A stretch of 64,000 nt of DNA, taken from Paenibacillus sp. (GTDB taxonomy: Bacteria; Bacillota; Bacilli; Paenibacillales; YIM-B00363). The stretch is taken from NCBI RefSeq assembly GCF_031177825.1, contig NZ_JAPSKE010000001.1, positions 248,001 to 312,000 of the forward strand, given 5' to 3'. A program made the position numbers and the translations under genes. Positions 23,469 to 34,891 of this stretch are shown in pieces. The notes beneath the pieces are model-generated. The model saw only the letters and a list, made by a program, of their open reading frames with translations. It was not told where the DNA came from and did not search any database. Numbering within the stretch: position 1 is the stretch's first letter; each line of letters opens with the position of its first letter.

Positions 23469-23918
23469 TCAGACGAGAATATTGATATCGAAGTCTCCGA
23501 TCCGCTCGACCGATAACGGGATGCTGACAGCCTTCTTGCCCCAATCGATCGCGCCGTCGCCGACGAGGCTCGGCGGCGTAATGTCGACGGCGATGCCGTT
23601 GTGATACAGCATCGTGCTGGCGTTGCCGCTGATCATATTGCCCAGCTCCGCGACGGCGCTCCGGCACATGTCGTCGAGTTCCGTGACCGTGTAGCCGCCG
23701 AGCATCGCCGACACGATATTCATCGCCATCGTGTCGGGGAAGCCGAACATAATCTCCTTCTCCATCTGGCCGTGTATGCGAATCTTGAGCCATACGTAAT
23801 TATCCGTATATTGCATCTGCTTCATCTGCAGTTTACCCACGGTCGGCTTCACTTGAATGATCGTCTCGAAGACTTGTATCGAAGAAGTCAAGAACGGGTT
23901 AATGAGTTCGGCCTGCAT
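23469..23918 (-). CDS. cheX: CheX-like chemotaxis phosphatase
   Basis: A 149-residue single-domain protein. The catalytic E-x-x-N of CheC/CheX/FliY phosphatases is in SAVAELGNMISGNAS (about 90-104), followed by the VDITPPSLVG strand as in Thermotoga CheX. Such proteins hydrolyse CheY-P. The start at ATG 23918 follows AGAGGGGGAG. No chemotaxis genes flank it; instead a c-di-GMP-I riboswitch and terminator lie directly upstream and a lipid kinase downstream. Confidence 0.9.
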   Translation of the reverse strand: MQAELINPFLTSSIQVFETIIQVKPTVGKLQMKQMQYTDNYVWLKIRIHGQMEKEIMFGFPDTMAMNIVSAMLGGYTVTELDDMCRSAVAELGNMISGNASTMLYHNGIAVDITPPSLVGDGAIDWGKKAVSIPLSVERIGDFDINILV

Positions 23919-23952
23919 GAAGATATCTCCCCCTCTTTGTCCATTTTCGCAA

Positions 23953-23980
23953 CAAAAAAAACGCCCGAATCGACGGGCGT
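23953..23980 (-). terminator. Riboswitch-associated intrinsic terminator
   Basis: ACGCCCG and CGGGCGT arms (23961-23967 and 23974-23980) are followed on the minus strand by eight T residues. It lies between the c-di-GMP aptamer and the cheX ribosome binding site, so it is the likely expression platform. Confidence 0.85.
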
Positions 23981-24004
23981 TCATTCGAGAACGAACGAAA
24001 CGTC

Positions 24005-24092
24005 TCCGCAATTTCGGTAACCCAGCTGCCTTAGCTCAGCCTTAGGCCTGTGGCTTTGCGCCCCTACCTTTCGATAGGTTTGCCTTTTCGAT
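24005..24092 (-). promoter_or_regulatory. c-di-GMP-I (GEMM) riboswitch aptamer
   Basis: Read on the minus strand, the segment contains the conserved GEMM-I elements in order: GGCAAACC, a GAAA tetraloop-closing stem, GGGGCGCAAAGCCAC, AGGCCTAAGGC, a second variable stem, and GCAGCTGGGTTACCGA. The GNRA tetraloop and its receptor-like stem are both present. It precedes an intrinsic terminator and cheX, so c-di-GMP should control read-through into cheX and the lipid kinase gene. Confidence 0.93.
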
Positions 24093-29385: not shown

Positions 29386-29562
29386 TCAAATTGTTACGTC
29401 CAGCACCTTCCCGAGATTCGGGTGCGGCGCCGGCTGCGGCTGCGCTCCGGCGAAGTCGGCCAACAACTGCGAAGCCTGCTGCTTGGCCAAATCCTTCACC
29501 TTGCCGTACATCGCATACGACACGTCTCGCTTCAAGATTGCGGTATCGAGCGAGATTTCCAT
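29386..29562 (-). CDS. YjfB family putative motility protein
   Basis: A 58-residue protein starting MEISLDTAILKRDVSYAMYG, with a helical middle KVKDLAKQQASQLLADFAG and a C-terminal HPNLGKVLDVTI, the pattern of the YjfB family (B. subtilis YjfB is a motility-associated protein). AAGGAGG lies 7 nt before the ATG. It is divergent from the CheA/CheX/adenylate-cyclase operon, which adds a motility flavour to that locus. Confidence 0.8.
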   Translation of the reverse strand: MEISLDTAILKRDVSYAMYGKVKDLAKQQASQLLADFAGAQPQPAPHPNLGKVLDVTI

Positions 29563-29665: not shown

Positions 29666-29695
29666 TTACCGCACTACCCTTCCCTCTGGTATAAT
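29666..29695 (+). promoter_or_regulatory. Promoter of the kinase/cyclase operon
   Basis: A perfect TATAAT at 29690-29695 with TTACCG (29666-29671) 18 nt upstream. The transcript would start about 30 nt before the kinase ATG. It overlaps no other gene. Confidence 0.55.
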
Positions 29696-29734: not shown

Positions 29735-32659
29735 ATGCAAGTTCCTCCCGGCGCGATCCCAAGGCCCCAGGCCCCACCGAAGAAGCGCAAGAATCGCAGA
29801 ACGCTGCGCAAGCGGATCGTCCGCAATATGAACTATTCTTCGCTGATCAATCTATTTTTGTTCGCCTGCGTTCTCCTCCTGCTGGTTACTGGCGTCCTGC
29901 GGCCGATCAGCTATTCGCTGTCGGAGTATTTCGCGAAGTCGATACAGAAGGATCTCTCCTCTCCGATCACGCTGCAATATTTCGGCGTCGAGCGGCTGTC
30001 GGAGCTCGACCCCCGGGACCCCGCGGTACACGCTTGGATCACGGAACGCGTCGAGGAAGTGACCAAATACGAACAGTTCTCGCTGATGGTGGAGATCGAG
30101 ATGGAAGACGGCCGGTTCGAGAGCGCGCCGAAGCCGGAGGACGCCGTCTATGTCGAGCTTCGACTCGGGGGCGCCGTGCCCTATTCGAATATCCCGCCGA
30201 TGGCCCAATTGGGAGACGGCCCGTTCCGGGAGCTCGTGGAGTATTACAAGACCGAGACGGTCCTTCCGCTCGTCGACGAGACGACGGGCGCTTCGGTCGG
30301 TTCGATCATGGTCGGCATCAATCCGAAAATTCCGGTAGCTATTACGTTCTTGCTCGGCTTCGCGATGCTCGCCTTATGCATCGTCGCGTTAATGCTCACG
30401 AAGCTGATCGCGAGGCTCCTTACCGTGCCGCTCATCGCGCCAATCACGCAGCTGGAACAGAAGGTCAAAGCGATCGCCGAAGGCGACTTCCAATCGACGA
30501 TGGACGCCAAGATCGAGCTGAAGCGGCCGCTTCGCGAAATCGAGTCGTTAATGGATTCGACGAATCTTATTATGGAAAATATGCAGCGTTACGCGGAGCA
30601 ACTCCAACAGCAGAAGACGACCGTGGAGGAGCAGAACGACGAGCTGGAAGCGCAGAACGACGAGCTCGTCCAATCGAAGCGCCGACTGCAAGAAGCCCAG
30701 CGCCTCCTCACCGCGCGGGAGCGCAGCGTCCGGAGCTTGCTCGACAACGCGAAGCAAGGGTTCCTCACGTTCGGGCCGGAACTGCTCGTCGACGAGGAAT
30801 ACAGCCGCGAGTGCGCTCGATTGTACGGCGGACCGATCGCCGGCCTCTCGTTCCCGGTTATGCTCTCGCAGGGCGACGAGGAGCAGCGGCTGTTCATCGA
30901 GCGGCTGCTGCGCAAGCTGTTCGACGAACGGGACGCCGCGCGGCGGCAGGTGCTGCTCCCGCTTCTCCCGGAAGAGACGCGGATCGGTTCGATCGACGTG
31001 CAGATCGAATACGCGATGATCGCGGATCGCGGCGAAGACGGCGAGCTCTCGGAGCGCTGCATGGTCATGTTGACCGACATCACCGAGAAGCGTCAGCTGC
31101 AAAACCGGATGGAACAAGAGCGCAATACGCTGCAGACGGTCGTCAAGGTCGTGGTGGATTACAACGGGTATTCGTCGCTCGCGCGTTCCTTCTCCGAATG
31201 GGTCGCGGCGCCGTTCGACGAGACATGTCCCCCCGCCGGCATGAAGTCGGCGCTGTTCGATCTGTTCCGCGCCGTCCATACGTTCAAGGGCAGCTTCGCG
31301 CAGATCGGCATGTCGCGCCTCGCGGCGCGACTGCACGGCGTCGAATCGCTCGTCTCCGCTTGGAGCAAGCGCCCGGAGCCGCCGGCGCCCGCGGAAGCGC
31401 TAGAGAAGCTGAACGAGCTACGAATGGGCGATTGGCTGCAAGAGGAGCACGAGGTGCTCCGAAGCGTGCTAGGCGACTCGTTCTTCGACCAAGATCAAGT
31501 CCTCCTCGTCGACCGCGCGAAACTGTTGGAAATCGAACGGAAGATGATGGCTACGCTGTCCCCGGCGGATTGCAGCTTGCTGCTTCCGGAGCTCCGGAAG
31601 ATCCGGTACAAGCCGTTCCGCGAGCTCCTGTCCTCCTATCCGGAATACGTCGTAGGCCTTGGGGAGCGATTCGACAAGATGATCGAGCCGTTCGACGTCG
31701 AAGGCGGCGACTTCCTCGTCGACGGCGACGCGTACCTGCCGCTCGCCCGATCGCTCGTGCACGTATTTCGCAACGCCGTCGACCATGGACTGGAAGGCCC
31801 CGACGAACGCGTCGAGGCCGGGAAGCCGGAAGAAGGGACGATCCGGTGCTCGGTGTCGCTGCAGGACGATACGATCCAGGTGCGCATTCGGGACGACGGC
31901 CGCGGCATCGACGTCGAGAAGCTGAAGCGGAAGGCGCTCGAGCAAGGCGTCCTCCAGGCGGAAGCGATCGAAGCGCTCTCCCCTGCGGAAGCGATGCAGC
32001 TGGCGTTCCTCGGCGAGCTGTCCTCCAAGGACGAGGTGACCGAATGGTCCGGACGCGGCGTCGGCCTCTCCTCGCTCCGCTACGAGGCGGAGCGGCTCGG
32101 CGGCACGGTGTCCGTCGCGTCGACGCCGGGCGCCGGCACCGCCTTCACCGTGACGCTGCCGTACGACGCCCTCGGGGGCATGCCGGACGTGACGCCCTCC
32201 TCCCTGCTGCTTCCGATCGCCGAGACGGCGGCGAGCTTCTTCCGGGAGAACGCGGACCTCGACTTCCGTCCGAACGGCGACGTTCGGGCCGAGACGGGCG
32301 GCAAGATGGCGCTGCTTAATTTCTCGACGTTCATGTCGGTTCAAGGCGTCTGCAACGGCATGTTCGTCCTGACGATGGACGAGTCGACGGCGAATACGTT
32401 GACGCGGCGGCTGGCGTACGGGGAACTGTCGCCCGAAGAGACGCGGCTGTATATGGAAGATACGCTCGCCGAAGCGGCGAATATCGTCTTGGGCAACTCG
32501 CTGAAGCGAATGGACGAGCTTGAAACCTACCTTTCGATCGACCCGCCGATCACCGTCTTTACGGAAGGCGCTTCGATGAAGGTGGCGGAGTCGGAGATGT
32601 GGTCGATCGAGCTCGGCGGCGCTTCGGGCGCGATCGCGATCGGTTTTATCAAAATGTGA
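29735..32659 (+). CDS. Membrane CheA-like sensor kinase with HPt, ATPase and C-terminal CheX domain
   Basis: A 974-residue protein. Order: basic Pro-rich N-terminus; TM1 ~36-57; extracytoplasmic sensor ~58-198; TM2 ~199-225; HAMP ~228-280; coiled coil ~283-335; PAS-like ~338-455; HPt with AVHTFKGSFAQIGM (His ~515); CheA-type ATPase with N-box FRNAVDHGLEG (~676), DDGRGID (~720) and GRGVGLSSLR (~773); CheX-like domain ~835-974 with AEAANIVLGNS (E-x-x-N ~912-915) and LSIDPPITVF. Autophosphorylation would put phosphate on the HPt His and then on the receiver encoded next. The CheX end predicts a built-in phosphatase. AGGTG lies just before the ATG. No P2/P5 or CheW-binding region is evident. Confidence 0.88.
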   Translation: MQVPPGAIPRPQAPPKKRKNRRTLRKRIVRNMNYSSLINLFLFACVLLLLVTGVLRPISYSLSEYFAKSIQKDLSSPITLQYFGVERLSELDPRDPAVHAWITERVEEVTKYEQFSLMVEIEMEDGRFESAPKPEDAVYVELRLGGAVPYSNIPPMAQLGDGPFRELVEYYKTETVLPLVDETTGASVGSIMVGINPKIPVAITFLLGFAMLALCIVALMLTKLIARLLTVPLIAPITQLEQKVKAIAEGDFQSTMDAKIELKRPLREIESLMDSTNLIMENMQRYAEQLQQQKTTVEEQNDELEAQNDELVQSKRRLQEAQRLLTARERSVRSLLDNAKQGFLTFGPELLVDEEYSRECARLYGGPIAGLSFPVMLSQGDEEQRLFIERLLRKLFDERDAARRQVLLPLLPEETRIGSIDVQIEYAMIADRGEDGELSERCMVMLTDITEKRQLQNRMEQERNTLQTVVKVVVDYNGYSSLARSFSEWVAAPFDETCPPAGMKSALFDLFRAVHTFKGSFAQIGMSRLAARLHGVESLVSAWSKRPEPPAPAEALEKLNELRMGDWLQEEHEVLRSVLGDSFFDQDQVLLVDRAKLLEIERKMMATLSPADCSLLLPELRKIRYKPFRELLSSYPEYVVGLGERFDKMIEPFDVEGGDFLVDGDAYLPLARSLVHVFRNAVDHGLEGPDERVEAGKPEEGTIRCSVSLQDDTIQVRIRDDGRGIDVEKLKRKALEQGVLQAEAIEALSPAEAMQLAFLGELSSKDEVTEWSGRGVGLSSLRYEAERLGGTVSVASTPGAGTAFTVTLPYDALGGMPDVTPSSLLLPIAETAASFFRENADLDFRPNGDVRAETGGKMALLNFSTFMSVQGVCNGMFVLTMDESTANTLTRRLAYGELSPEETRLYMEDTLAEAANIVLGNSLKRMDELETYLSIDPPITVFTEGASMKVAESEMWSIELGGASGAIAIGFIKM

Positions 32660-32699
32660 TTCGGAATAACCTGATTCGGAAAAGGACGGGACCCTCGAT

Positions 32700-33452
32700 A
32701 TGGCAACGGTATTGATCGTAGACGATTCGATTTTAATGAGGCGCAATTTGAAGATGATGCTGACGGAAGCGGGACACGAGGTCGTCGCCGAGGCGTCGAA
32801 CGGCATCGAGGCTTACAAAGAGTACGTGAAGACGATGCCGGACATCGTCACGATGGATATCACGATGCCGGTCATGAGCGGCATCGACGCGGTGAAGAAA
32901 ATCATCGCCTCGTATCCGGACGCGAACATCGTCATGATCAGCGCGCTCGACCAGCGCAGCATGGTGTTCGACGCGATTCAGAACGGGGCGAAGCACTACA
33001 TTTTGAAACCGATCACCGCGGAGAAGGTGCTGCACACGATCAACGAGGTGCTTCACCAGGAGTCGGCGGAGGACGAAATCGCCGCGGCGTCCGCGCCTTC
33101 CGGCGCCGGCGCCGGGAACGCAGCCCCTCCGTTCGAGATCGCCAATAAGAACGGCGTCTTCATCGTTACGCTGCGCGCGTCGATGGGCGGCGAGCAGCTC
33201 GACGCTCTCGGCGGCGCGATCGCCGGCTTCCAGTTCATTAAGCCGCTTAAAGTCGTGTTCCACTTCGACGAAGCCGAAGGCATCGCCGACGAAGCGCTCG
33301 TCCGCATCGCGGGGTACGCGAAGCAAGTGCTGCAGGCCGGGGGCACCTCGAAGACGGTGTCGACCGGGAAGCTGCTCAACGCGCGGCTGAAGTCGTTGGA
33401 CGAATCGCTGTTCGCCACGATCTACACCGATCTGTCGCAGATCGTCATATGA
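32700..33452 (+). CDS. Response regulator with CheY receiver and STAS-like domain
   Basis: A 250-residue protein. The receiver (1-120) has acidic D8/D9, phospho-acceptor D53 in MDITMP, S81 and K103 in LKPI, so it should be phosphorylatable. After an Ala/Gly-rich linker (~128-142) comes a ~105-residue domain resembling STAS anti-sigma-antagonist folds (LRASMGGEQLDALGGAIAGF, then KTVSTGKLLNARLKSLDESL), without the usual D-S-S-G phospho-serine motif. It lies 40 nt after the kinase and overlaps the cyclase gene by 4 nt (ATGA). It has no DNA-binding domain, so output is protein-protein. Confidence 0.85.
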   Translation: MATVLIVDDSILMRRNLKMMLTEAGHEVVAEASNGIEAYKEYVKTMPDIVTMDITMPVMSGIDAVKKIIASYPDANIVMISALDQRSMVFDAIQNGAKHYILKPITAEKVLHTINEVLHQESAEDEIAAASAPSGAGAGNAAPPFEIANKNGVFIVTLRASMGGEQLDALGGAIAGFQFIKPLKVVFHFDEAEGIADEALVRIAGYAKQVLQAGGTSKTVSTGKLLNARLKSLDESLFATIYTDLSQIVI

Positions 33453-34891
33453 ACGGCGAACGCGGCAACGAGGCATACCGGCGATTCGTGCCTCACGAGA
33501 TGCTGACTTACCTGAATAAGGGATCGTTCGACGAGCTGCGGCACGATGACCACGTACGGCTCGAGATGACCGTGCTGTTTTCGGACATCCGCGCGTTCAC
33601 GACGCTGTCCGAACGATGGAAACCGGAGGAAACCCTCCGGTTTTTGAATTCGTACTTATCTCGCATGGAGCCGAGCGTGGAGGCGTTCGGCGGCTTCATC
33701 GACAAGTTCATCGGCGATTCGATCATGGCGTTGTTCGGCGAAGGCGCGGACGACGCCGTAAAGTCGGCTCTGCATATGCTCGGCGCTTTGCGAGAGTACA
33801 ACCTCGGTCGGCTGCGCGCCGGCTATGAACCGATCCGCATCGGCATCGGCCTGAACAGCGGCCCCCTCCTGCTCGGCATCGTCGGCGGCGAGCGGCGGCT
33901 GCAGGGCACGGTCATCGGCGACGCGGTGAACGTCGCTTCCCGAGTGGAAGATCTGAATAAGGCATATGGGACGACGCTGCTGCTCACCGGCAACACCATC
34001 GACCGGCTCGCCGATCCGACCAAGTACGCGATGCGGCAGATCGACGCCGTCCAGGTGCGAGGACGCCAGCGCGTCGAACGCATCTACGAGCTGTTCGAGG
34101 CGGACGCGCCGGACATCTTCGAGAAGAAGCATCGAACAAGGGAACGGTTCGAGGAAGCGAGAAGCTTATTCGAGCGGGGCGCGTATGCGGAGGCGAAGCG
34201 CGCGTTCCGCGACGTATACGCCGCGAATCGGTACGACCTCGTAAGCCGCGCGTACGTCGATCGCTGCGACCGCCCGCCGGTCGAGCGGATCGAAGCGCCG
34301 CTCGTCTATCCGGACGTCGGCGACAAGCTGGAACGCGGCGAACGCCGGCTGACCGAATGGATCGACGCCGCGCTCTCCCCCGTTCCGTCGGCCGCGCGTT
34401 CGGCGTCATCCGGATCGGATGCCGGAACGCCGGCCTTGCTCGAGCGGTTGGTCGAGGCGGCGCGCATTTACTTCGCGTATCATCTCGGCTTGCGTCTCCC
34501 GGAGGACGCTTGGAAGAACGCCGTTCCGACCTGGTCCCCTTCCGCCCCGTTGCTCGATCTGACGGCATGCGTCTTTCTCGAAGGCGCGATGGACGGCGGA
34601 CTCCTTCTGAGCGTGGAGGTGGACGGCGGGCTCCGGCTTCTGCATCGGATGAGCTTCGAAGGCTGGAGCGCCGAAGAAGAGATGCCGCTGCTCATGGACG
34701 CCCTCGGCGAAGCGCTGAACATTGTCGCCGGCAACAGTCTGCGCATGTTCCAACAGTACGCCGACTTCGTCACGATCGAGCCGCCCGTCGCGATGCACAC
34801 CTTCCGCCGAGAGCTTCGTCCGCCCGAGGGCGTGTGGTCCGTCGCGGTGCCGTTCGGCGAGGCGCGGATCCGCTGGATGGCCGTCGCTTGA
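33449..34891 (+). CDS. Class III adenylate cyclase fused to CheX-like domain
   Basis: A 480-residue soluble protein. The cyclase domain (~35-200) has metal Asp D46 (VLFSDIRAFT) and D90 (FIGDSIMALFG), adenine-selecting K86 (DKFIGD) and D158, and transition-state N161/R165 (GDAVNVASR), so ATP is the predicted substrate. A helical middle (~215-300) precedes a CheX-like domain (~340-480) with LGEALNIVAGNS (E-x-x-N ~421-424) and VTIEPPVAM. Translation is coupled to the response regulator gene. cAMP signalling is uncommon in Firmicutes. Confidence 0.85.
   Translation: MNGERGNEAYRRFVPHEMLTYLNKGSFDELRHDDHVRLEMTVLFSDIRAFTTLSERWKPEETLRFLNSYLSRMEPSVEAFGGFIDKFIGDSIMALFGEGADDAVKSALHMLGALREYNLGRLRAGYEPIRIGIGLNSGPLLLGIVGGERRLQGTVIGDAVNVASRVEDLNKAYGTTLLLTGNTIDRLADPTKYAMRQIDAVQVRGRQRVERIYELFEADAPDIFEKKHRTRERFEEARSLFERGAYAEAKRAFRDVYAANRYDLVSRAYVDRCDRPPVERIEAPLVYPDVGDKLERGERRLTEWIDAALSPVPSAARSASSGSDAGTPALLERLVEAARIYFAYHLGLRLPEDAWKNAVPTWSPSAPLLDLTACVFLEGAMDGGLLLSVEVDGGLRLLHRMSFEGWSAEEEMPLLMDALGEALNIVAGNSLRMFQQYADFVTIEPPVAMHTFRRELRPPEGVWSVAVPFGEARIRWMAVA

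Follow-up and report, generated by a model that had tools for sequence, protein, structure and literature searches.

A membrane sensor kinase, a response regulator and a predicted class IIIb adenylate cyclase are encoded in one conserved operon of a Paenibacillus sp., and both the kinase and the cyclase end in a CheX domain. The operon lies in a window, the whole stretch of DNA that was analysed, of 64,000 nucleotides (G000:C4:248001-312000) from a genome of 6.36 Mb. On balance, and judging from sequence, we favour the explanation that the three genes form a self-contained kinase-regulator-cyclase module, with a bifunctional kinase/phosphatase, a regulator that would control cAMP synthesis, and a possible off-switch in the CheX domain of the cyclase. 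All of the parts are known already; their combination, and the presence of CheX on an output enzyme, are new to us. A sequence-only reading of this DNA knew of no described Firmicutes system with such a layout, and our results are consistent with this: a search of the open-access literature revealed no account of such an operon, nor of any fusion between a cyclase and CheX.

The coordinates of the three open reading frames agree with those proposed in the sequence-only reading, including a gap of 40 nt between the kinase and regulator genes and an overlap of 4 nt between the regulator and cyclase genes (Table 1). Pfam bears out these domains that it had named: the kinase contains Hpt, HATPase and CheX, the regulator a receiver, and the cyclase a class III catalytic domain followed by CheX. 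Upstream of the kinase gene there may be an extended -10 promoter element; a consensus promoter scan that required a -35 box did not have this element in its list. Next to the kinase gene, in divergent orientation, lies a gene for a YjfB-type putative motility protein of 58 amino acids (29386-29562, minus strand), which is conserved only within the genus.

Table 1. Features of the operon, in window positions.
Feature	Position	Strand	Basis or description
Possible extended -10 promoter element, TGGTATAAT	29687-29695	+	Suggested by sequence only
Membrane sensor kinase gene	29735-32659	+	974 aa
Hpt domain	31259-31414	+	Pfam PF01627, E 3.9e-6
CheA-type HATPase (P4-like)	31748-32167	+	Pfam PF02518 (HATPase_c), E 2.9e-17
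Kinase CheX domain	32324-32590	+	Pfam PF13690, E 7e-11
Response regulator gene	32700-33452	+	250 aa; CheY-like receiver and STAS-like C-terminal domain
Receiver domain	32709-33041	+	Pfam PF00072 (Response_reg), E 1.4e-25
STAS-like domain	33132-33398	+	Predicted topology and profile-profile comparison
Class IIIb adenylate cyclase gene	33449-34891	+	480 aa; C-terminal CheX
Cyclase catalytic domain	33563-34078	+	Pfam PF00211 (Guanylate_cyc), E 3e-20
Cyclase CheX domain, E421-x-x-N424	34562-34855	+	Pfam PF13690, E 2.7e-8; CheC-like, 0.002

The kinase is built in the order TM1, extracytoplasmic part, TM2, weak HAMP, coiled coil, PAS-like domain, Hpt, CheA-type HATPase and CheX. Its two hydrophobic membrane segments lie at about residues 32-63 and 191-237, the HAMP match is under the Pfam cut-off, and the PAS-like domain, at 331-460, is given no name by Pfam. 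The phospho-acceptor His515 (codon 31277-31279), inside the motif AVHTFKGSF, is invariant in an alignment of eight orthologs. Among solved structures its ATPase most resembles CheA, with PDB CheA chains matching residues 607-810 (E 2.9e-33), and the NCBIfam model CheA_Halo gave E 1.4e-52, a match far below that model's cut-off. Although the kinase has both an Hpt domain with its His and a CheA-type HATPase, we rejected its assignment as a CheA because the Pfam scan found no CheW (P5) domain in it; it also carries a sensor of its own. A genome-wide CheW search likewise found none at the locus or in the window's stretch of contig C4. The matches were on contigs C14, C49 and C55, and the CheW genes at these three other loci each have CheA-type sequence nearby. 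At the C-terminus, residues 861-952 match the CheX of Borrelia burgdorferi (3hzh_B, E 0.0012). The E-x-x-N pair that had been claimed for both CheX domains is E913-x-x-N916 in the kinase (codons 32471-32473 and 32480-32482) and is found again in the cyclase, and both domains exceed the Pfam cut-off (42.5 and 34.2 bits against 27). We consider it very probable that the kinase CheX is a phosphatase.

In the regulator, D8, D9, K103 and the phospho-acceptor D53 (codon 32856-32858) are invariant across nine orthologs. The best Foldseek match to the receiver is the CheY of Thermotoga maritima, at 50-51% identity, and 3hzh_A, the CheY of a CheX-CheY complex, is also among its matches. Since the matches listed for the regulator all correspond to the receiver domain, Foldseek says nothing about the STAS part. 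The proposal of a STAS-like C-terminal domain met with a divided outcome, in that Pfam gave no STAS match in the window regulator or in seven scanned regulators of relatives, but the structure model predicts the order beta-beta-alpha-beta-alpha-beta-alpha, and hhalign against STAS proteins of the same genome gave a probability of 94%, compared with less than 4% for reversed and unrelated controls. Predicted topology and profile comparison thus support a C-terminal STAS domain. The phosphorylatable Ser of SpoIIAA-type proteins is missing from it, its place in the regulator alignment being acidic or otherwise occupied.

Pfam recognizes only the catalytic and CheX domains in the window cyclase, which has no transmembrane segment; its predicted structure, at a pLDDT of 45, was too poor for use. 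The best PDB relative of the catalytic domain is the CyaC-type cyclase 2w01 (E 5.6e-25). Its catalytic residues are D46, K86, D90, T154, N161 and R165; D46, K86, D90, N161 and R165 are invariant in the cyclase alignment, and the DKDTNR set is kept by all 13 operon-type cyclases. The sequence-only reading had placed D158 in the catalytic set. That residue is conserved, yet in this enzyme family it is not base-selecting, and we have corrected the substrate-selecting residue to T154; K86 and T154 form the Lys-Thr base-selecting pair of class IIIb adenylate cyclases. The product is very likely to be cAMP. The same order also contains a long HAMP-type cyclase-like family whose members, where read, have N/Q/K, A/P/S and non-Arg residues at the catalytic places, the first metal Asp being replaced by Asn, Gln or Lys. 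As the operon cyclase retains its catalytic set and this family has lost it, the operon enzyme appears to be kept active. One member of the long family is encoded in the window genome itself (L032, G000:C22:316073-316879); we considered it as a second active cyclase and rejected it, its catalytic residues being gone. Similar relatives with a long frame occur in roughly 70 of the 399 genomes of the order and, to judge from the members read, make up a conserved pseudo-cyclase family.

We surveyed the same 399 genomes for the operon, with counts that represent related genomes rather than independent events. A full-length kinase ortholog was present in 15, in every case with a REC-STAS partner gene adjoining it, which upholds the pairing of kinase and receiver. 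Operon-type cyclases were found in 13 genomes, all within these 15, from five genera and three families, and in 12 of the 13 the cyclase is linked to the kinase, in two gene orders and with 4-nt overlaps. Layout A, in which the order is kinase-regulator-cyclase and the cyclase bears CheX, is seen in the window genome, G001, G002, G004, G033 and G167 (P. silviterrae); we count G002 as linked because abutting contig ends meet between its kinase and regulator. Layout B has the order regulator-cyclase-kinase-regulator and a cyclase that lacks CheX and has a membrane segment of its own, and it occurs in G043 (P. flagellatus), G183 (P. mesophilus), G203 (P. psychroresistens), G112, G324 (Cohnella sp. 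CFH 77786) and G376. The cyclase-CheX gene of G005 (P. thermotolerans) is truly unlinked, lying elsewhere in the genome, and G007 (P. turpanensis) and G155 have the kinase and regulator and lack an operon-type cyclase. Flanking genes are common only within the genus; the conserved unit is therefore the operon and not the region, and we set the neighbouring genes aside as a clue to function. The three proteins give trees with concordant main clades. Absence of synteny in related genomes had been put forward as the finding that would speak against the sequence-only reading, and the synteny that we see speaks for it. With both synteny and catalytic residues conserved, chance is excluded: the operon is real, and its conservation exceeds what chance would give.

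The CheX domain on the cyclase appears to have been copied from a kinase CheX of the module itself. We built a tree from 80 CheX domains; its seven cyclase-fused members form one clade (96/60, the SH-aLRT value being only 60), and 98% of the bootstrap trees hold them together as a single group. This clade stands beside kinase CheX (95/89), next to the kinase CheX domains of G007 and G155, and its branches of 1.28-1.38 indicate fast evolution. The tree gives moderate support for such an origin, since the alignment is short, with few columns, and the branches are long. The stand-alone CheX gene of the window (23469-24011, minus strand) falls far from the cyclase CheX clade and from the fused CheX domains generally, and a second such gene lies on contig C27.

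In the mechanism that we favour, the membrane kinase would sense a signal from outside, or one from inside through its PAS-like domain. Its CheA-like ATPase would autophosphorylate His515 of the Hpt domain, and the phosphate would then pass to D53 of the regulator, a transfer that family knowledge and the pairing of the genes make near certain. The kinase's own CheX would take the phosphate off the regulator again, making the protein a bifunctional kinase/phosphatase; to our knowledge, Hpt-type kinases are not otherwise bifunctional in this way, since they are without a DHp domain. The regulator would control the class IIIb cyclase, with its phosphorylation state setting the rate of cAMP synthesis. 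That the state of the regulator sets cyclase activity, in whichever direction, seems probable to us. In layout A, the cyclase CheX, which is likely to be an active phosphatase, would bind the phosphorylated regulator and dephosphorylate the cyclase's own controller; we propose that the effector would thereby limit its own activation. Phospholipase C-beta, which is a GAP of its own G protein, offers an analogy. Tentatively, the cyclase CheX could switch off the very regulator that activates the cyclase, as an effector-borne 'GAP' in a CheA-like, receptor-less cAMP pathway of the Firmicutes. Because the cyclase of layout B is without CheX and is anchored by a membrane segment of its own, CheX would be neither needed for coupling nor the sole contact. 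A Crp/Fnr-type protein with the cAMP-pocket-like motif GELSLIDGKPRSAS is encoded on contig C31 of the same genome; a receiver of cAMP would thus be available, and this protein is our candidate for it.

Other readings of the operon deserve consideration. The cyclase CheX could be a docking or dimerisation module and not a phosphatase, in which case binding of the phospho-regulator would alter the cyclase homodimer and the kinase CheX would remove the phosphate. CheX is a known docking partner of phospho-CheY (3hzh, which was matched in our searches), class III cyclases are known as a family to act as dimers, and the fast evolution of the cyclase CheX fits such a role. However, the catalytic E-x-x-N pair is kept in all seven cyclase CheX domains despite their divergence, and we think a docking function alone unlikely. 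We would also be surprised if the main output of the regulator lay elsewhere, through its STAS domain acting on, for example, another STAS-binding protein or the motor, with the cyclase as a side branch or a phosphate drain via CheX. Such an arrangement would accommodate the unlinked cyclase of G005 and the kinase-CheX and REC-STAS genes that occur without an operon-type cyclase in G007, G155 and most relatives outside the Paenibacillales. Yet all 13 operon-type cyclases come from genomes that have the kinase, and they retain intact active sites where those of the related family are lost.

Unrelated signalling genes are commonly co-transcribed, and the locus could in principle be an ordinary two-component system and a cyclase that are neighbours but do not signal to each other. 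We consider this very improbable, because the genes occur in two orders and in three families, their trees are congruent in the main clades, there are 4-nt overlaps, and the kinase and the cyclase share a CheX domain.

Several known systems resemble parts of the operon. The Hpt phosphodonor, CheA-type ATPase, CheY-like receiver and CheX with E-x-x-N recall the CheA-CheY-CheX core of chemotaxis; however, the kinase here has its own membrane sensor and no CheW, it appears to lack a chemoreceptor partner, and CheX is fused to the kinase and to the cyclase instead of being a separate protein. Fusion of a kinase with CheC/CheX has been described for CheA of Leptospirae, and a dual function was proposed (PMC10782961). 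Those fusions belong to a chemosensory system and are CheA proteins of the F1 class, whereas ours involves a CheW-less transmembrane kinase and a second CheX on the output enzyme. The nearest solved structure of the window cyclase is, as noted above, a CyaC-type enzyme. The relay domains of CyaC sit in the cyclase polypeptide; in contrast, receiver and kinase domains are absent from the window cyclase, the connection is made by a separate regulator, and the cyclase bears a predicted phosphatase domain. For the cyanobacterial CyaC, histidine-to-aspartate phosphotransfer is reported to raise cAMP synthesis (Kasahara and Ohmori 1999, listed in PMC1183210; review PMC4284465). In the SiaABCD system of P. 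aeruginosa (cited in PMC9239204), a nucleotide-messenger synthase is under the control of a STAS protein. That system works by Ser/Thr phosphorylation of the STAS protein and through a diguanylate cyclase, whereas a phosphorylatable Ser is missing at that place from the STAS-like domain of our regulator. If our preferred reading is right, the operon would be a compact cAMP pathway in the Firmicutes, whose model species have sparse class III cyclases (Bacillus subtilis, one of our controls, had no PF00211 match). Chemotaxis parts would be used without chemoreceptors, and the kinase and the output enzyme would each bear an off-switch for their shared regulator.

The sequence-only reading had treated the three genes as one unit. 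Their linkage is indeed conserved, but the cyclase is better seen as an add-on to an older and wider kinase-CheX/receiver module. We fetched 79 loci with relatives of the kinase from GTDB genomes, the named relatives being Paenibacillus and Cohnella species. CheX is fused in 52 kinases of these loci, with a receiver gene within 300 bp in 42 of the 52, and ExxNxxxG is kept in all 52 kinase-fused domains. The group has members in Bacillota, Gammaproteobacteria, Campylobacterota, Thermotogota, Calditrichota and others, and outside the order the majority of relatives lack a cyclase gene next to the kinase. In several genomes of Paenibacillus and Cohnella, separate genes for the kinase, CheX and the receiver stand side by side, so the CheX fusion appears to join parts that were already neighbours. 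In a Thermincola regulator beside the same kinase type (L098:12085-13098), the slot of the STAS-like domain holds GGDEF, which points to c-di-GMP rather than cAMP, so the module appears to feed nucleotide messengers elsewhere too. A regulator from Desulfosporosinus (L104:12096-13595) combines a receiver and a STAS-like domain with DUF2225. The metagenome-assembled Paenibacillaceae genome RE-23may17-333 (L075-L082), of 2.7 Mb, encodes 13 or more relatives of the kinase, of which some lack CheX and some are part of larger hybrid proteins.
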